A stretch of 30,459 nucleotides of DNA from a virus, in the IMG/VR virus record IMGVR_UViG_3300013307_000041, positions 1 through 30,459 of that record; one strand, written 5' to 3'. The notes under the pieces were generated by a model that saw only the letters and a program-made list of their open reading frames with translations, had not been told where the DNA came from and did not search any database. The translations under genes and the position numbers were made by a program. Numbering within the stretch: the stretch's first letter is position 1; the number at the start of each line of letters is the position of its first letter. Positions 1,266-23,478 of the stretch are shown piece after piece.

Positions 1266-2582
1266 TTATAGCCCCTCCGGTAAAAACCCGTATTTTTCCT
1301 GAAACTGTTGTTTAACGCTAGGGGTCGGGTTCGAAAACAGGTAATTAATCGCGGCGCTCGCATTCTGCGGAGGCATCCCCCCAGACGTGAGCTGGCTTAC
1401 TGCGCCCTGTTTGGCGTCGTCGATCTCTACGTCCCGGCGGTAGGCGTCAGCTCGCCCGCCTTGCGACTTGGTTACAGCTTCCTTGGCTCGCGTCAGGGCG
1501 TTCTCGTAGCGCGTCAGGACGTCCTTGAGCTGCTGGGGGTTCATGGTACGGGGATCGGCGTTAATCAGCGCCTGAGCCGCTGCACGGCCCTCTGCCTCGG
1601 TAACGGGACCAGTACCTCGCAGCGACTGGATCCCGGCGACGCGCGCCTGGTCCTTGAGCTGCTGGAATTGGTTCATGATCTCCGCCGTGGCATCACCGCC
1701 GCCCGTGGCCGAACTCCAGCCGCGGTTAATCGCGCCGAGGTTGCCCGTCACCATGCCGAGGTCCTTACGCGCGAGGAGGCGCTGGGCCTGCTCGATCGCC
1801 GTATTCATCGGCGTCAGCGTCGACTCGTAGGTCTGGAGAAAATCGCGCTTCGTGTTTAGCTGATCCTGCTGCATCTTGCCCTGTTGCTGGAGCAACTTGT
1901 CGCGCCCAATGTCGTTTTTCTCCGACGCGATCCGGGTGTTGAGGCGCTGGGTCTGTAGCCCGATATATTTCAGGTTACGCTCCGCCGCGCTGCTTGCCGC
2001 CGTAATGTCCTGCCCCCTGATCGCGGTGCTGTTTTTCATGACCTCTTTCGCGTAGTCCAGCTGATCCTTACTCGTGTTGCTGGCGAGGTGGAGCGCTTGC
2101 ACCGAACGGCGGAAGCCCTCCGGGTCAGAGGCTGCGGCCTGATATGCCCGCTGCGGGTCGATGCCGAGCGCCTGGAGTGCCGGGGCGTTCTGCTGGACAA
2201 ACTGCTGGACGGCCTGCGGACCCTGCGAGAGAGCGACGTCCGCACCGCTGGCGAGCTGCGCGCCCTGCTGCTGGCGTAAGCCGTCCATCATGCCGAGGCG
2301 TGTCTGGAGCGTCTCGATCTGGTTCGGGTACTTGTACGCCAGATCCTGCAACTTGGACGGGTCGCCCTGCGCTGCCTGCCAGTCCTTGTTAAACTCGGCC
2401 ATCTGCGCCTGCTGGGCCTGCGCCTGCTTCATCGCCAGCCCCTGGATCTGGTTCTGCTGATACTGCGCCGTGTTCTGCTGGATCTGGCCGTAGTTGTTCA
2501 GGGTGTCGCGCGCACCCTGCTGGATAATACCCATATTCTGCGCGAAGGATCCCACGTCGGGATCAGTGCCGAAGATAGCCAT
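1266..2582 (-). CDS. Ejection (pilot) protein, P22 gp20-like
   Basis: 438 residues (P22 gp20 has 471). The protein is rich in Gln and Ala and mostly predicted helical, with a Gln-heavy stretch at about residues 30-65 and long heptad-like segments at about 165-260. This is typical of podovirus internal virion proteins that leave the head with the genome and line a periplasmic channel. I see no catalytic motif. The ATG at 2582 shares one base with the stop of the gp7-like gene (TAATG), with GGGAGC upstream, so the two are probably translationally coupled. The gp20 assignment rests on position between the gp7-like and transglycosylase genes and on composition rather than on strong sequence identity. 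Confidence 0.72.
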   Translation of the reverse strand: MAIFGTDPDVGSFAQNMGIIQQGARDTLNNYGQIQQNTAQYQQNQIQGLAMKQAQAQQAQMAEFNKDWQAAQGDPSKLQDLAYKYPNQIETLQTRLGMMDGLRQQQGAQLASGADVALSQGPQAVQQFVQQNAPALQALGIDPQRAYQAAASDPEGFRRSVQALHLASNTSKDQLDYAKEVMKNSTAIRGQDITAASSAAERNLKYIGLQTQRLNTRIASEKNDIGRDKLLQQQGKMQQDQLNTKRDFLQTYESTLTPMNTAIEQAQRLLARKDLGMVTGNLGAINRGWSSATGGGDATAEIMNQFQQLKDQARVAGIQSLRGTGPVTEAEGRAAAQALINADPRTMNPQQLKDVLTRYENALTRAKEAVTKSQGGRADAYRRDVEIDDAKQGAVSQLTSGGMPPQNASAAINYLFSNPTPSVKQQFQEKYGFLPEGL

Positions 2583-3244
2583 TAGATAAAGCTCCCGAAT
2601 AAGTTAGACGCCCAGCTCGCGCCGTTGTTCATGTCCTGCGCCGCGCCCTGGTTAAGCGAGTTTTGCGCGTACCCGGCAACCTGCCACGGCAAGGCCGCTT
2701 TCTGCGCGTTGATGTTGCCTTTCTGGCCCTGTAGCGCGTTCAGTGCGTTAGTACCCTGCGCCGCTGCTGCGGACTGCGCGCCAGCGCCGGAGAGGCCCAC
2801 GTTAGCCAGGCCCATAAGCTGGTTATACATGTCTTGCTGCTGCGCCGTCATTTGCGCGAGGTAGTTCTGGCCCAGCGTCGGCGCGATCGTGGTCAGGGAG
2901 TTAGCCGTGGCCGCTCCGCCGAGGTTCCCGGTCGCCTCTGCGCTGGCAAGGAGCGAGTTACGGGCCGCGCCCTCTGCCATCTTGTACTCGTTGCCTCCGT
3001 AATACTGCTGGAGCGTTTTCTCTCGATCGATCGGCTGGCCCGCAAGCGCGATCAGGTCAGGGAGTGCGACAGTCCCCGCCTCACGGAAAGGAGAAAGCCA
3101 CTCATCCTGGCGATTCATCAAATCGCGCTGCCAGTCCATCTGTTTGTCGAGGCTCTTTTGCTGCTGCTTCGCGGCCTTATTCGCCCCGATGCCGCCTAAG
3201 ATACCGCCGACGGCGCTACCAATTCCGCTAACAATGCCGCCCAT
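2582..3244 (-). CDS. Ejection protein, P22 gp7-like
   Basis: 220 residues (P22 gp7 has 229). The N-terminus is a Gly/Ile/Val-rich segment (GGIVSGIGSAVGGILGG, residues 2-18) that could insert in a membrane. A basic Gln-rich helix (KAAKQQQKSLDKQMDW) and an Ala/Gln/Asn-rich body follow. This N-terminal pattern is common in phage DNA transfer proteins that are packaged in the head and ejected with the genome. The start at 3244 has a strong GAGGAGG site 7 bases upstream and overlaps the end of the gp14-like gene by 17 bases. Its place just before the gp20-like gene matches P22. Confidence 0.75.
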   Translation of the reverse strand: MGGIVSGIGSAVGGILGGIGANKAAKQQQKSLDKQMDWQRDLMNRQDEWLSPFREAGTVALPDLIALAGQPIDREKTLQQYYGGNEYKMAEGAARNSLLASAEATGNLGGAATANSLTTIAPTLGQNYLAQMTAQQQDMYNQLMGLANVGLSGAGAQSAAAAQGTNALNALQGQKGNINAQKAALPWQVAGYAQNSLNQGAAQDMNNGASWASNLFGSFI

Positions 3245-3623
3245 CTGGTGGCCTCCTCATTAAAATCATGTCTACTCGTTGCCCGGTAATCAATTCTACT
3301 TGCTGCGGGTCGCTTTCAACAAATCCAAAGCGGCGGAGACAATTACGGACGCCCTCGTGACCTGGGAGGATCGGGGCGCGGATCGCCACGCTGCCGAATT
3401 TGTCCATAAAGTCCGCCAGCGCCTTGCGGACGTAATGCCGGAAGCCCGGACGCATCGCCATATGACCGTCCAGCCCGCCCTCCTCGTTGGCGTTGATGGC
3501 GAATATGCCACACTCTCCCCACAGCCAGTACGTGCATACGTCGTTATCCGGCCATTCAGGGACGCCCCAGTGGCGCATAAGGGCCGCGCCGTAGTCCTCC
3601 GGGACCTGCCTTAAGCCGATCAT
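3228..3623 (-). CDS. P22 gp14-like head/tail assembly protein with acetyltransferase-like fold
   Basis: 131 residues. The body has the strand-helix pattern of GNAT-type N-acetyltransferases: CGIFAINANEEGG, then HMAMRPGFRHYVRKALADFM, then SVAIRAPILPGHEGVRNCLRRFGFVE. The last part resembles the acetyl-CoA-binding end of GNAT folds, but no clear catalytic residue can be named. The gene lies between the needle gene and the gp7-like gene, the exact position of gene 14 in P22, whose product has little known function. The ATG at 3623 overlaps the needle stop as ATGA, implying coupling. Longer in-frame readings to 3800 run into the needle gene without a ribosome site. An acetylating role is inference only. 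Confidence 0.68.
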   Translation of the reverse strand: MIGLRQVPEDYGAALMRHWGVPEWPDNDVCTYWLWGECGIFAINANEEGGLDGHMAMRPGFRHYVRKALADFMDKFGSVAIRAPILPGHEGVRNCLRRFGFVESDPQQVELITGQRVDMILMRRPPDGRHC

Positions 3624-4198
3624 GTTCCGGCCATCCCGTGCGACATAACGAGCGCTACCAGGGCGGCGATAGTCTGCCGCGCCTCCACCAGCCCCTCGGC
3701 TAAAGCCTGGATCTCGGCCTGCGAGTAGGTCGCCCCGGCGGAGTAGCTGGCGCTGCCGTTGATGCCGCCCTTCTTGAGCGTCCCGGTCGCTGCCGTCCAT
3801 CCGGTCTGGCGTCCACCCATTACTTTGATGTTGTTAACACGGATCTCGGTAGCGGTCGATAGAGGCCCGTCCATGACCTGGAGCGAGTTTCTATTTAGTT
3901 TCACGGCGTTATTACCCAGATCGATGATCGAGCCGCCGATGTTATCAATGTCGGTGTTGAGCTGGGAGATCTGCCCCTGCTGGTCAGAGAGCGCCGCGTC
4001 CTGCTGGTCGTTTCGGATGCGCTGCTGCTCTGCCACCTGAAACGCGTCGTTAGCGTCTCCTCCAGCCTGCTCCGCCGTCTTGCCGACTTCCCCAGTAATT
4101 CCCCCCAGGCGGGTAAGCCAGTCCTTGAAAGCCGGAGAGGTCCCCGGCGGTAGGCTGCTTAGGTTGAGCTGCTGAATAAATAACTTACTGGTAGCCAT
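3620..4198 (-). CDS. Tail needle protein, P22 gp26-like
   Basis: 192 residues (P22 gp26 has 233). The needle is a trimeric coiled coil that plugs the portal vertex below the gp10 hub and is thought to pierce the outer membrane. Residues about 55-95 carry hydrophobic heptads (RNDQQDAALSDQQGQI and beyond), resembling the NDEQDVILADHEARI part of gp26. The C-terminal half differs from gp26: GGRQTGWTAATGT and a terminal helix ending LVMSHGMAGT match a tip module seen in many phage fibres and needles. The ATG at 4198 follows AAGGGGG. It sits directly after the gp10-like gene as in P22. A short fibre is the alternative reading. Confidence 0.7.
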   Translation of the reverse strand: MATSKLFIQQLNLSSLPPGTSPAFKDWLTRLGGITGEVGKTAEQAGGDANDAFQVAEQQRIRNDQQDAALSDQQGQISQLNTDIDNIGGSIIDLGNNAVKLNRNSLQVMDGPLSTATEIRVNNIKVMGGRQTGWTAATGTLKKGGINGSASYSAGATYSQAEIQALAEGLVEARQTIAALVALVMSHGMAGT

Positions 4199-4207
4199 GA
4201 TGCCCCC

Positions 4208-5665
4208 TTAACTGAGTCGAATACGTGCGCGCGAGAGCGTGGCCGGGGTTGCGCCAACGGTGCGGATTTTGAACGCAACGGCAGTACGGCAGCGGCCCAT
4301 CTTTTTCAGGACGACGCGCTTAAGCCACTGCTGCGGCGTGTTGTAGTCGATCAGGATCTCCTGGCCGAATACGCTCCCGTCCTCCGTGCCGCTGATCCAC
4401 ATCCGGCTCGTTACGCTGTCGCCGCCTACGCTGGCGTCGATCTCGAAATCGCTCATCATCATTCCGGCGAACGGCATCAACGGCGTATAGAGGACAATCT
4501 CCTGATCCTCGCCATACTGCGCACAGGAGGCCATATCGAACTCGCCAAGCACGGCCAGACGCTTGTCGCCTACCGTGACGCGGTTCCCCTCGTTGCAGTA
4601 GTCGATCGCGCGGTGCTGGCCGCTCGCGTTCTGTACGCCCGTTTTAATAATCGACCATACCGGGAGGCCCTGCGCCTGGCTAACGGGATGATCGTAGACG
4701 AGCGTCTGGTCCGGTAGGTGGACAATAAGCAATTTATGGCTTTCAAAGCTCACGGACTCCAGTCGGGTGTTTTGCAGTTGCGCCACGGTGTACCCGGCGA
4801 GGATCTTCTTAATCTGGACCGATGCCAGATCAGACCAGGAGCCGCCGCCGGGGTTCATCATGGCGATCGTAAATTCGCCCACAAACGGCGACGTAAGGAA
4901 TGCGAAGCTGTCGAGGTACTGGCACACCGTTTCACGGCCCAGCGTCCCGGCTTCGACCGTATAGGACGGCTGGCTGGCGTAAACGTTCTCCGCGTCCCCG
5001 GTCAGGCCGAAGAACTCGATCGAGGCGGTCCCGAAGCACAGCACGTAATCACGCCACGAGCGGATCGCCACGATGCCGTCCGGCATGGACTCCGCCCGAT
5101 AGAACGGAGCGATCTTGTCCGGGTGGCTCTCGTCCTCCAGAGATGAGATCCAGAAGGTGTCCGAGTTTTTCACGCTGAAAATGTAGCGCTGGCGCAGGTG
5201 GCAGACGTCGTTAATGTCGCCCCAGGTGAATTGAGGGTTGTCGACGTTCGTCCCGCTGTCGCGCGGCCAGTTGCTAAACGTCTTGCGGGTCCCGTCGTAG
5301 CGGTAGAGTAAGAGCTGGTTTTGCGAGACGACGCCCTGAGAGTCGCGGCTATGCGCCATCGGGGTGCGGTCCTCGCCGGACACGTCGCCGATAGGGTTGC
5401 CGTTGGTGTACAGCTTGCCACCCATCACGCGATAAGCCGAGCTGGAGACCGTATTCCACTCCACGCCGCGCGAGAGGCCCGCCACGTCCGCGACCTTCTT
5501 AAGGCCGGGCATCATGCGCATGTAGCCGTTGCCGCCCTTAATGGCGCGGGCAATCGCCAGCATGTTCTCCGGTAAGCGGGTGATCCAGTCGAAGTTATTA
5601 CGGCTGCGACCGTCACCAAAAACAAGGGGCAGATTCACGACCTGCCCGCGTTGTGCGTAAGCCAT
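4208..5665 (-). CDS. Packaged DNA stabilization / tail hub protein, P22 gp10-like
   Basis: 485 residues (P22 gp10 has 472). gp10 forms a hexameric hub below gp4 and closes the portal channel. Many segments match gp10 as I recall it: SRGVEWNT (gp10 SRGVEYNT), YRVMGGKLY, RYDGTRKTFSNWPRDSG (gp10 RYDGTVKTVSNWPADSG), LEDESHPD, YRAESMPDGI, SWRDYVLCFG, and a C-terminal LKKMGRCR and TLSRARIRLS. This is the clearest P22 homologue in the window. The ATG at 5665 follows AAGGGGG. It lies between the gp4-like and needle genes, in P22 order. Confidence 0.93.
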   Translation of the reverse strand: MAYAQRGQVVNLPLVFGDGRSRNNFDWITRLPENMLAIARAIKGGNGYMRMMPGLKKVADVAGLSRGVEWNTVSSSAYRVMGGKLYTNGNPIGDVSGEDRTPMAHSRDSQGVVSQNQLLLYRYDGTRKTFSNWPRDSGTNVDNPQFTWGDINDVCHLRQRYIFSVKNSDTFWISSLEDESHPDKIAPFYRAESMPDGIVAIRSWRDYVLCFGTASIEFFGLTGDAENVYASQPSYTVEAGTLGRETVCQYLDSFAFLTSPFVGEFTIAMMNPGGGSWSDLASVQIKKILAGYTVAQLQNTRLESVSFESHKLLIVHLPDQTLVYDHPVSQAQGLPVWSIIKTGVQNASGQHRAIDYCNEGNRVTVGDKRLAVLGEFDMASCAQYGEDQEIVLYTPLMPFAGMMMSDFEIDASVGGDSVTSRMWISGTEDGSVFGQEILIDYNTPQQWLKRVVLKKMGRCRTAVAFKIRTVGATPATLSRARIRLS

Positions 5666-20101: not shown

Positions 20102-20330
20102 CTGCGGAAAATCTGCGGTAACTTGCCGCACAAAATGCCGCAGGTTTCACGCGTAACCGACGTGTAACCGATTCCCTTTGTAAGTACCTGATAATAAACG
20201 GTTACACTGCGGCGTTTTTTGGGTTTCATCATGTAACTTTCGGTAGATTCGGTTACGGTTACATATATATATCCCCCCTTTAGGGGGGATATGTAATGAA
20301 ACCTGAAACCGTCAGCGGGTAACTGTAACC
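20102..20330. repeat. Repeat-rich AT-rich region behind the ATPase gene (possible origin or operators)
   Basis: This 282-base gene gap (20049-20330) holds several kinds of repeat. There is an imperfect inverted repeat of CTGCGG/CCGCAG units (20102-20143). GTAACCGA occurs twice, 11 bases apart (20153, 20164). A perfect nine-base inverted repeat GTGTAACCG / CGGTTACAC lies at 20162-20170 and 20199-20207. GGTTAC occurs twice in tandem (20251-20262). Further copies are GTTTCATCATGTAAC (20223-20237), ATGTAATGAAACC (20291-20303) and GTAACTGTAACCC (20319-20331). The same motif recurs at 22005-22102 beyond the ATPase gene. Iteron-like clusters beside replication genes are known in replicons; origin function here is inferred. 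Confidence 0.6.
20269..20292. other. Perfect 10-base hairpin in the repeat region
   Basis: ATATCCCCCC, loop TTTA, GGGGGGATAT. It is symmetrical and has no U-tract on either strand, so it is not a normal terminator. It lies among the GTTAC repeats, 39 bases beyond the stop of the ATPase gene. Confidence 0.75.
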
Positions 20331-21989
20331 CTAAAAATCCTTAAGATCGTCGTCGTCCTGTTGCGGCTGTTTTGCCTGCCAGTCAGTCGGACGGGGTTCG
20401 TTGTCACGCACTCCACCCAGAAGCGGGATCGCCTCGTTCATGGCGGTAAGCGTTTCGTCGCCAGCCATCTTGATCAGGATCTGCTTTGTGGTGGCATGTT
20501 CAAAGGCGCGGTGAAACTCGACTTTGGTCAGCGGCGGCTCGGCCATGTTGCGCGCCCAGTCCGATAGCGCACCCTTGCTTAACTTCGGTCCGCGCTTCGA
20601 CGTGCGGCGTCGCTCGTTGTACTCGTGGACGAATTGCGTCAGGCGTAAGGCGTTCTCCTCGGTCTTGCTGGTGCGCTTCTCTGCGGGCTTCTCATCGTCG
20701 TCTGCGCCTGCGTCCTGTTTGACCAGCTCCGGCTCGTTGATGACGATAAGCGTCGAGTCGTTATTGCCGATGTGCCACGCTGCCGGGCTGTCCTTCCCAG
20801 GTGCGGACATTCGGGCCATTGCCTCGCGCTTGGCTTTGACCAGCTCGGGCGGGAGTTTGACGGACTTCGTGCGGAATGCGCGCCGCTCCAGCATGGCGGA
20901 GCCTTTGGCTTTGGTGTGATCACACACAAACAGGTCACGATCCTTGTGCTTCGAGAGCGTGATCTCGAATGCGGAGTTAGCCTTGAGGGCAGAGGCCCCA
21001 CGTCCGCCGCGCGTCGCGTCCTTCCCGGAGTGGTGGAGGATCACCACGGCGCAGTCGAGCGCCTCGGCCAGCTTCTGCGCATTGGACAGGAGGACGGCGG
21101 CCTGGTCGTTGTTGTTCTCGGTGAACGGCTCGCCACCCACCCAGCGGCCCGGCTCGTTGTCCTTCGGTTCGCGCCACTGCTCCCCGACCTTCTGGCCTGC
21201 GCTGTTGGCGCTGTACGTATCGATAACGACCAGGGCCGGACGATTGCCCTCCAGCTCGAAGAACGGCGAGGCGTTGAATTTGGCGGCAAACTTCATCAGC
21301 TCGCGCTCGCGGTGCAACGGCACGGGCTGAGAAATGATAAACATATTGTCCAGCGGCTTGTTTTTGTTCTGGCTGTAGCACCAGCCCGCGTAACGCTCTT
21401 TCACGCCGTCGGCGTCCTCTGGCGCGAAGTACAGCACGGAGCCTTTGCGGACGGGCAGACCTGCGAAGTGGTGTCCCTTCGCCACGCAGATAGCCATCTG
21501 GAGCGCACAAAACGTTTTCTTTGCGCCGGACTCGCCGACCAGGAAGCCCACGGACCGCTCCGGGATCAGGTTCTGGATCACGAAGTTGATAACGCGCGGG
21601 GCGCTGGCCTCCCGGAGCTTGTCCAGGAATTCGTCCGGCTGCTCCGCCAGCATGGCCTTAATCTTTGCCATGTCGCGCTCGCGGCGCTCCTCGGTGGTCA
21701 GGCTGCGCGGCATCAAGGCGGGCTGGTTGTCCTCGTCCAGCACCATGTCCCACTCGTGATCGTCCTCGTTGCTGCCGAACTGGTAGAGCTGCACATCATC
21801 CAGGCTGAGTCCCTGCGCTGCTGCGTTGTCCTCGTCGATCGCCATCTGCTGGGCCATCTCGGCCTCGGTAAACTCCGGCGTTTCCGGTAGCCACTCGGGC
21901 GGCTGGTCGAGAGGTGCGTCGCCTGGGAGGAGCTGCTCCAGGATCTCCTCGCGGCTCGGCTCCTGCTGCTCGTCTCTTTCGTCGATCAT
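20331..21989 (-). CDS. RepA/RecA-like ATPase, probable replicative helicase
   Basis: 552 residues. An acidic N-terminal region (1-125) leads to a RecA-type ATPase core. Walker A is GESGAKKT (152-159, an unusual Lys-Lys variant), followed by CALQMAICVAKG. FAPEDADG (188-195) and Walker B LVVID (253-257) come next. A sensor-like VILHHSGKDATRGGRGAS (316-333) is typical of the plasmid RepA / AAA_25 family. The C-terminus has helical segments and ends in an acidic tip (QQDDDDLKDF) that recalls the partner-binding tails of single-strand-binding proteins. Such ATPases unwind DNA at origins as hexamers. The ATG at 21989 has AAGGAAAG upstream, a TTGACG/TACATT promoter lies behind it, and repeats flank the gene on both sides. 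The stop is TAG. Helicase activity is inferred. Confidence 0.82.
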   Translation of the reverse strand: MIDERDEQQEPSREEILEQLLPGDAPLDQPPEWLPETPEFTEAEMAQQMAIDEDNAAAQGLSLDDVQLYQFGSNEDDHEWDMVLDEDNQPALMPRSLTTEERRERDMAKIKAMLAEQPDEFLDKLREASAPRVINFVIQNLIPERSVGFLVGESGAKKTFCALQMAICVAKGHHFAGLPVRKGSVLYFAPEDADGVKERYAGWCYSQNKNKPLDNMFIISQPVPLHRERELMKFAAKFNASPFFELEGNRPALVVIDTYSANSAGQKVGEQWREPKDNEPGRWVGGEPFTENNNDQAAVLLSNAQKLAEALDCAVVILHHSGKDATRGGRGASALKANSAFEITLSKHKDRDLFVCDHTKAKGSAMLERRAFRTKSVKLPPELVKAKREAMARMSAPGKDSPAAWHIGNNDSTLIVINEPELVKQDAGADDDEKPAEKRTSKTEENALRLTQFVHEYNERRRTSKRGPKLSKGALSDWARNMAEPPLTKVEFHRAFEHATTKQILIKMAGDETLTAMNEAIPLLGGVRDNEPRPTDWQAKQPQQDDDDLKDF

Positions 21990-22004
21990 ACTGCTTTCCT
22001 TAAA

Positions 22005-22102
22005 TCACGGTTACATTGTCGGGTTTCAATGTAACCCGAACGTGAAACCACGTCAACGCCGCGCCAGCAAAGAAAATACTTTACATCACGGTTTCATTGT
22101 AT
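22005..22102. repeat. GGTTACA/GGTTTCA operator-like repeats between divergent genes
   Basis: TCACGGTTACATTGT (22005-22019) and TCACGGTTTCATTGT (22086-22100) are direct copies differing in one base. Between them are the near-palindrome GGGTTTCAATGTAACCC (22021-22037) and CGTGAAACCACG (22041-22052, reverse orientation). They sit in the 144-base gap between the ATPase gene and the plus-strand genes and overlap the ATPase promoter. They fit binding sites for a regulator or initiator. Confidence 0.7.
22028..22056 (-). promoter_or_regulatory. Promoter of the ATPase gene
   Basis: Minus strand TTGACG (22056-22051), 17 bases, TACATT (22033-22028), about 40 bases before the start codon. The -10 lies within the GGGTTTCAATGTAACCC element and the spacer contains the reversed GTTTCACG element, so a protein bound there would block transcription. 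Confidence 0.65.
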
Positions 22103-22133
22103 TAGTGTTATTTGCGAACAAACGGAGGTATTT

Positions 22134-22589
22134 ATGGACCTGTTTAAAGACGAGCCGCGCGCCCCACTTCGGGCTACCGTGGCGAACCGCAAGACGGCAG
22201 CGGAGAGAATGCTGGAGATACTGGAAAAGGTTAAGCCGTCCGATCTCTCCATCCAGGACGCTATCGATCGCGGCGTCCTCGATCCGTTCGGTGTGACGCA
22301 GGAAGTCCGGGACGCTTTCGCCCGGCTCCGGCCTGCGGAGCAAATCTTCGCGGCGTTCTATGGCGTCGCAGGCGTGGACAGCAAGGCACACCTGGCGCTC
22401 TGCCGTCACGCTGCACAGATGGACCGCGACGGGCTGCTGCGCGGCCTGAAAGTGGATAAGGATATGCTGGTGGTCGAAGTTACCGCCCATGACATTCTCG
22501 ACGACGTTATCCCCCCAGGGACCGAAGTCGGGCCGGAGTTAGCCGCCGCTGCTTTGCGGTGCAAACAAGCCTTAAGGGGGCAAGAGTGA
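22134..22589 (+). CDS. Unknown 151-residue protein, first gene of the plus-strand block
   Basis: Not recognised. It is mostly helical: AAERMLEILEKVKPSDLSIQDAI, then QEVRDAFARLRPAEQIFAAFYG, then SKAHLALCRHAAQMD, ending AAAALRCKQALRGQE. No helix-turn-helix can be named with confidence. The ATG at 22134 has a strong GGAGGT site. Being the first gene opposite the ATPase, with operator-like repeats between, it could be a regulator or a replication helper; that is inference from position. Confidence 0.7.
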   Translation: MDLFKDEPRAPLRATVANRKTAAERMLEILEKVKPSDLSIQDAIDRGVLDPFGVTQEVRDAFARLRPAEQIFAAFYGVAGVDSKAHLALCRHAAQMDRDGLLRGLKVDKDMLVVEVTAHDILDDVIPPGTEVGPELAAAALRCKQALRGQE

Positions 22590-22789
22590 AACGATTGTTA
22601 AAGTCGATCTACATCAACATTTCGATCATGGTTGCGGTCTACGCCGTGGTGTGGTTCTTCGCGCCAGGCTCAATCCATAACGATGCGCTGGAGGCGTGGT
22701 CGTTTGCTGCAACGCTGGCCGTGCTGGTGGCGCTGGACTACGCCGTGGCATGGCTCGACAAAATTCTGGACAAGAGAGGGGACGCCTAA
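22586..22789 (+). CDS. Small membrane protein, two transmembrane segments
   Basis: 67 residues with two hydrophobic segments (IYINISIMVAVYAVVWFFAP, then WSFAATLAVLVALDYAVAWL) and charged ends (KRLLK and DKILDKRGDA). It would be an inner-membrane protein of unknown role. The start is GTG at 22586, overlapping the upstream stop (GTGA), with AAGGGGG upstream. The earlier GTG at 22559 lacks a site. Confidence 0.66.
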   Translation: MKRLLKSIYINISIMVAVYAVVWFFAPGSIHNDALEAWSFAATLAVLVALDYAVAWLDKILDKRGDA

Positions 22790-23478
22790 TGTTTATTCTA
22801 TGTCACGACCAGCAACGCAACTCGCCGCGACTGGTCAACGTTAATCACATCATTTCGCTGGGTCCGATGAAGCACAACGACCAGGACCGCGTGACGCTGG
22901 AGACGGCCAACGGGTTCTTTGTGTGGAATATGCCGTTTGACCGGGCGCAGGATGTGCTTATCGATAATGCCTCGCAGGTCACGGCCCCGATAGCCGCCCG
23001 GATCAAGTCGTTCGAGGATTGCGTCGCCCCCCTGGCGCAGACGATCGAGAAGTGGGCGCAGCAAGCCAACACGCCGATCCTGAATCTGGACGGCATGACG
23101 CCGGAGGAGGAGGCGCGTTTTAAGGCCAGCATGAGCGAGACGCGCGCCACGCTGCACACTATCCAGGGTCGTCTCCAGTCTGTCCCGGAGAAAATGCTGG
23201 AGACGGACGTCGAGGCGGTCTGTCAGCTACTGGAGGATCACGAGTGGGCTGAGCACTGCGCGAGCACCAAACTCGGCCAGCGTCTGGAGTCTGCGGTGAC
23301 GGAACTGCACAATCAGCACGGCGAGATGCGAGAGCGGCTGGAAAGGGCGGAGGAGCTTCTGGCCGGGGTGTTTCACGAGTACCAAAACGACCCGATGGTT
23401 AACGGATGCCTGGAGAGCGCAGAGGCGATCGGGAATTTTTTGTACCCGATGCAAAAAAGTGCTTGCGAGAAAGAATAA
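22789..23478 (+). CDS. Unknown 229-residue protein with coiled-coil end
   Basis: Not recognised. The first 65 residues look like a small beta domain (MFILCHDQQRN, VNVNHIISLG, RVTLETANGFFVWNMPF). The rest is helical, with a probable coiled coil at about residues 165-205 (ESAVTELHNQHGEMRERLER). The ATG at 22789 overlaps the upstream stop (TAATG) with GAGAGGGG before it. Longer readings into the membrane gene are rejected. It is cytoplasmic by composition. Confidence 0.68.
   Translation: MFILCHDQQRNSPRLVNVNHIISLGPMKHNDQDRVTLETANGFFVWNMPFDRAQDVLIDNASQVTAPIAARIKSFEDCVAPLAQTIEKWAQQANTPILNLDGMTPEEEARFKASMSETRATLHTIQGRLQSVPEKMLETDVEAVCQLLEDHEWAEHCASTKLGQRLESAVTELHNQHGEMRERLERAEELLAGVFHEYQNDPMVNGCLESAEAIGNFLYPMQKSACEKE

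Follow-up and report, generated by a model that had tools for sequence, protein, structure and literature searches.

Short GGTTWCA repeats flank the gene of a RepA-like ATPase on both sides in the 30.5-kb fragment of a virus record studied here (hereafter the window, meaning this whole stretch of DNA), and related phages keep the same layout with repeated words of their own. The C-terminal domain of the ATPase covaries with the word, and we consider it probable that this protein is a self-loading initiator helicase, which would bind its own origin downstream of the gene and repress its own promoter upstream of it. Judged from its sequence, the window comes from a Sortsnevirus-like lytic podophage. 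At the nucleotide level, the region of the ATPase is 84% identical to that of Kosakonia phage Kc237, approximately 80% to those of the Sortsnevirus members IME279 and sortkaff, 74% to that of Sortsne and 66–69% to those of members of Murrayvirus. We used ten complete relatives from these two genera for comparison; a search for relatives among GTDB genomes returned none, and the genus-level papers that we consulted on Sortsnevirus and Murrayvirus describe no replication origin.

The window contains 18 copies of GGTTWCA (4.5 expected), and 0 of 100 shuffles attained this number. Thirteen of the 18 copies fall within 434 bp, i.e., in the intergenic regions before and after the ATPase gene (20143–20330 and 22009–22096), which bears out the clusters of GGTTACA/GGTTTCA, in both orientations, that a first-pass annotation had placed on either side of the gene. 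When each region was itself shuffled, the eight downstream copies compared with a mean of 0.13 and a maximum of 3, and the five upstream copies with a mean of 0.08 and a maximum of 2. The density is 30 per kb in the flanking regions versus 0.17 per kb in the rest of the window (about 180-fold), the remaining five copies lying outside both regions at background level. The same annotation had named an equal frequency across the genome as evidence against a shared binding site; within the available 30.5 kb, in which motif frequency was assessed, the distribution is far from equal. Short repeats clustered above chance at a single locus beside the gene of a candidate initiator, in a layout kept by relatives, correspond to an arrangement of the iteron type.

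The downstream cluster has a GC content of 44%, compared with 60% for the window, and combines tandem copies (20251–20263 and 20297–20310; tandem copies had been noticed earlier) with single sites in both orientations, these lying downstream of the ATPase stop codon (20331). Between the tandem copies lies a hairpin with the core CCCCCC-TTTA-GGGGGG, which is absent from the first-pass annotation (Table 1). Folded as a DNA strand, positions 20251–20310 gave −20.9 kcal/mol with a z-score of −5.1, and a scan for perfect stems of at least 9 bp with loops of 3–8 nt recovered only two in the window, at 22009–22036 and 20269–20292. Equivalent hairpins in relatives are located 39–208 nt past the stop codon. 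We rejected a terminator reading of the downstream hairpin, as no T tract follows it and it is absent from the list of terminator-like elements.

The upstream cluster occupies the region between the divergent ATPase and 151-residue genes. An inverted repeat was indeed found there, although its length is not the nine bases originally given: two sites form a perfect 10-bp stem around an 8-nt loop. The element reported over the ATPase promoter was likewise recovered, and an equivalent of this candidate promoter exists in 8/8 genomes compared. In the candidate rightward promoter, TTTACA and the spacer site are conserved in the alignment of relatives, and all eight genomes have a divergent pair of candidate promoters with motif-bearing spacers.

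Table 1. Features of the ATPase locus, in positions of the window
Feature	Position	Strand	Description or basis
Downstream repeat cluster, likely origin	20117..20330		8 exact GGTTWCA plus GGTTACG/GGTAACT variants, both orientations
Imperfect palindrome GGTTACGGTTACA - AT tract - hairpin - TGAAACCTGAAACC	20251..20310		DNA fold; same plan in relatives
Perfect 10-bp hairpin ATATCCCCCC-TTTA-GGGGGGATAT	20269..20292		39 nt past the ATPase stop codon
RepA-like hexameric-helicase-type ATPase, 552 aa, phrog_2850, AAA_25	20331..21989	-	Pfam, profile, fold
ATPase C-terminal domain, residues 443-516	20442..20663	-	Proposed repeat reader; covariation with the motif
Upstream repeat cluster	22009..22096		5 exact GGTTWCA: 22009+, 22022+, 22030-, 22043-, 22090+
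Inverted repeat GGTTACATTG-8-CAATGTAACC, 10-bp stem from two sites	22009..22036		Perfect-stem scan
Candidate ATPase promoter TTGACG-17-TACATT	22028..22056	-	Site in the spacer, another over the -10
Candidate rightward promoter TTTACA-17-TAGTGT	22080..22108	+	Site 22090 in the spacer; weak -10
151-aa protein, phrog_30497, no assigned function	22134..22589	+	First gene of the rightward operon

The intergenic regions of the relatives align site by site, and the word that is repeated differs by phage. All ten complete relatives have the same layout with phage-specific words, among them GGTTACA in KMB41, GGTAAC in Kc237, sortkaff, IME279 and Lumpael, ATAACAT in ST231, GTTAAC-like words in sortsyn and IME_EC2, and mixed words in Sortsne. 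Within any one genome, the five upstream sites are more alike than after reshuffling of sites among genomes (4.90 versus 4.37, sd 0.09); this signal rests largely on ST231 and sortsyn, since the same test gave p = 0.10 without these two. In the alignment, divergence was not higher in the upstream site columns than in their flanks. The plan recurs, with words that are unrelated, in more distant relatives of the ATPase (31–35% identity): the homologue of Serratia phage Smarc2 is flanked by AGGGATG on either side, that of Pantoea phage MED16 is followed, 41 nt from its stop codon, by a hairpin with GGATTATT around it, and the Kc166B-like and Dibbivirus-like loci have hairpins 55–208 nt past the stop codon. 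As a separate observation, the records of Kc237 (MW258710; 39809–40894, 1–69) and Kc166B (MW258711), both from one paper, match at 100% over 1,086 bp at their ends and share approximately 70 bp more across the record start; next to the proposed origin, the shared sequence contains another hairpin, CCCCCCCTCTTTAGAGGGGGGG. The matching ends would be explained either by recombination at the origin or by a cross-over during assembly.

A single protein that reads the sites would be expected to alter its reading surface along with the word and to keep it when the word stays. Between the window and Kc237, which differ in their words, the ATPase core (residues 100–425) is 97% identical whereas residues 443–516 are 74% identical; for ST231 and sortsyn, a second word-switch pair, the values are 96% and 49%. 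The same-word pair Kc237 and IME279 gave 95% for both the core and the C-terminal domain and just 77% for the N-terminus. At the DNA level, ST231 and sortsyn have low identity in the upstream region (52%), the part coding for the C-terminal domain (64%) and the downstream region (54%), in contrast to 94% in the core, 96% in the N-terminus and 84–85% in neighbouring genes, and thus three separated pieces changed together. In a scan of the proteome with 45-residue windows (40 proteins, 924 windows), the ATPase C-terminal domain ranked 1st to 5th, followed by a protein annotated as a tail or decoration protein in relatives. Across all genome pairs, rank correlation was weak (0.35 for the C-terminal domain, 0.56 for the N-terminus), perhaps as a result of saturation among distant pairs. 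The argument for the reader rests on the close pairs and the proteome scan, with roughly two independent switches of the word in the close relatives. This comparison supports the earlier suggestion that the repeats are a shared binding site for one protein. Its two proposed roles, replication initiator or regulator of the divergent genes, need not be alternatives, as sites in the promoter spacers together with sites flanking the hairpin suggest that one protein may serve both.

The ATPase core belongs to the RecA-like RSF1010 RepA/DnaB class, which is also characterised by hexameric 5'-3' helicase activity, and the phage protein may share this activity. AAA_25 was the sole Pfam domain found (E 2e-24), a profile comparison with the PDB gave RSF1010 RepA (E 0.001), and the best fold match of the predicted model was RSF1010 RepA (1olo_A, Z 21.4 over 223 residues), followed by DnaB-type helicases. 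In the full-length model, the C-terminal domain consists of helices at 442–463, 472–481 and 489–501 and short strands at 505–507 and 514–516. Modelled alone, it retains the three helices, and the wing is replaced by helices. Searches with this domain alone gave no significant match, either by fold against the PDB or by sequence, and an NCBIfam search gave nothing useful. The domain is predicted to be helix-turn-helix-like, with a winged helix as a candidate assignment only.

Several annotations of ATPase homologues deserve comment. In IME_EC2 (NC_047742, 38709–40396) the annotation divides the ATPase into two pieces (58 and 59) and leaves its C-terminal domain cut off; in its near relative sortsyn the protein is intact, and the split probably reflects a frameshift or a sequencing error. 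The homologue in KMB41 (OR539216, 38983–40638) carries the name of a cobalt-zinc-cadmium resistance protein (CusA/CzcA), which looks wrong. In MED16 (1501–4212), a single 903-aa protein, listed as DNA primase/replicative helicase, has the RepA-like module as its C-terminal half, so that both fused and separate versions of the replication gene occur among related phages.

According to the mechanism we propose, the C-terminal domain of the ATPase would bind GGTTWCA. Downstream of the gene, where sites in both orientations surround the AT tract and the C/G hairpin, the ATPase would assemble as hexamers and extrude or melt the hairpin, opening the duplex. It could then load itself, and replication would start with the separate phage primase and, presumably, a host polymerase. 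Upstream, it would sit in both spacers of the divergent promoter pair, so that accumulating ATPase would shut down its own gene as well as the rightward early operon; the upstream cluster could double as a second replication element.

It seems rather unlikely that the repeats are operators only, i.e., that the C-terminal domain binds them solely for transcription control on both sides (of its own gene, by autorepression, and of the early operons to the left and right) and that the origin lies elsewhere. The sites within both divergent promoter spacers of 8/8 genomes are in accordance with such a role, and GC skew is not decisive: it did not place the origin at the ATPase locus in Sortsnevirus genomes or ST231, and in four Murrayvirus records the detrended minimum falls at most 265 nt from the ATPase start, with skew being confounded with gene direction. 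What this explanation leaves unaccounted for, however, is the hairpin with inverted tandem copies on either side that is conserved past the stop codon in relatives with different words, and also why the reader would then be part of an ATPase of the replicative-helicase type. Regulation of the divergent genes by another phage protein, with the ATPase domain varying for other reasons, we regard as unlikely. The 151-residue protein had been put forward together with the ATPase as a binder, and the comparison favours the ATPase, through its C-terminal domain, and speaks against the 151-residue protein, which is 97% identical between the window and Kc237 despite their different words. The XRE repressor does have an HTH_3 domain, but it is 100% identical between ST231 and KMB41 and 99% identical in Lumpael, all of which have different words. 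Among the small or variable early proteins some remain candidates, for example that encoded at 22789–23478, but in the proteome scan no other protein fits the covariation pattern as well as the ATPase domain.

That the repeats serve packaging (pac/cos), mark a genome end or bind a host factor seems very improbable. Several deposited records of these phages start near the ATPase locus; nevertheless, the terminase large subunit and an adjacent candidate small subunit do not follow the word and are 95–97% identical across word changes. A host factor as the reader is difficult to reconcile with sortkaff, Sortsne and sortsyn, which have different words although E. coli K-12 was the plating host for all three. 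Separately, we note that the early protein at 22789–23478 is highly variable, with 57% identity to Kc237 versus 97% for its neighbour, and gave weak coiled-coil-like matches only.

Replicative RecA-fold helicases normally require a separate initiator or loader. It is tempting to speculate, although we do so tentatively, that lytic podophages carry an exchangeable replication-specificity module, in which three separate pieces (the helicase C-terminal domain, the origin repeats and the promoter operators) change together around a conserved RepA/DnaB-type helicase, making this a self-loading RecA-fold helicase, and that parasites or defences targeting phage origins may be what drives the switching. 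If our reading is correct, both genera, Sortsnevirus and Murrayvirus, would gain an origin and an initiator together, and the RepA/DnaB-type class would join the helicases that seem to find their own origin. ST231 and sortsyn, and likewise the window and Kc237, would then be natural pairs with near-identical cores and different specificity, suited to studying how a small DNA-reading domain changes its target.

The proposed arrangement combines features of several known replication systems. The plasmid RSF1010 has iterons and hairpins at its origin, oriV, and the iterons are handled by a separate protein, RepC. The phage ATPase shares the helicase fold of RSF1010 RepA, as shown by the fold and profile matches above, and differs in having an extra C-terminal domain, which we propose does the job of RepC. 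The alpha protein of P4 binds repeats in two separated cis elements (ori and crr), similar to the two separated clusters described here. In the archaeal plasmid pRN1, a stem-loop directly downstream of the replication gene is required as the origin (PMC4234260), a position that recalls the hairpin of the phage locus. Both P4 alpha and the pRN1 protein are fused primase-helicases of the SF3 type, whereas the phage helicase is of the RepA type and its primase is separate, with the zinc-ribbon primase encoded by a gene of its own in the complete relatives.

In the Rep helicases of SaPIs, the C-terminal domain recognizes iterons that directly follow the gene of the helicase, and SCCmec Cch2 likewise binds repeats downstream of its own gene (PMC7581432). 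These are initiator helicases as well, in some cases with a separate primase gene. The phage repeats also lie directly downstream of the ATPase gene, and their reading by the C-terminal domain is suggested by covariation. The SaPI and SCCmec proteins are, however, DUF927 or D5-type helicases, unlike the RSF1010 RepA/DnaB-type core of the phage protein, and the phage adds sites over the upstream divergent promoters and a C/G hairpin amid the downstream sites. Since Pfam gave AAA_25 only, and neither DUF927 or D5/Primase_Cterm nor the primase-helicase domain defining the P4 type was found, we do not assign the ATPase to either family. In the PLE satellites of Vibrio cholerae, the origin and the DNA-binding domain of RepA covary and have been exchanged around an otherwise conserved protein; the proposed driver of switching is a phage nuclease directed at the origin (PMC8263062). 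Origin-type switching among close lytic phages would parallel that between PLE and ICP1, where the origin-directed nuclease is thought to be the driver. In both cases, origin and initiator DNA-binding domain covary around a conserved remainder; PLE RepA, however, belongs to the RepA_N initiators, has its DNA-binding domain at the N-terminus and is believed to recruit a replisome, whereas the proposed phage reader is C-terminal, fused to a helicase core and found in a lytic phage.
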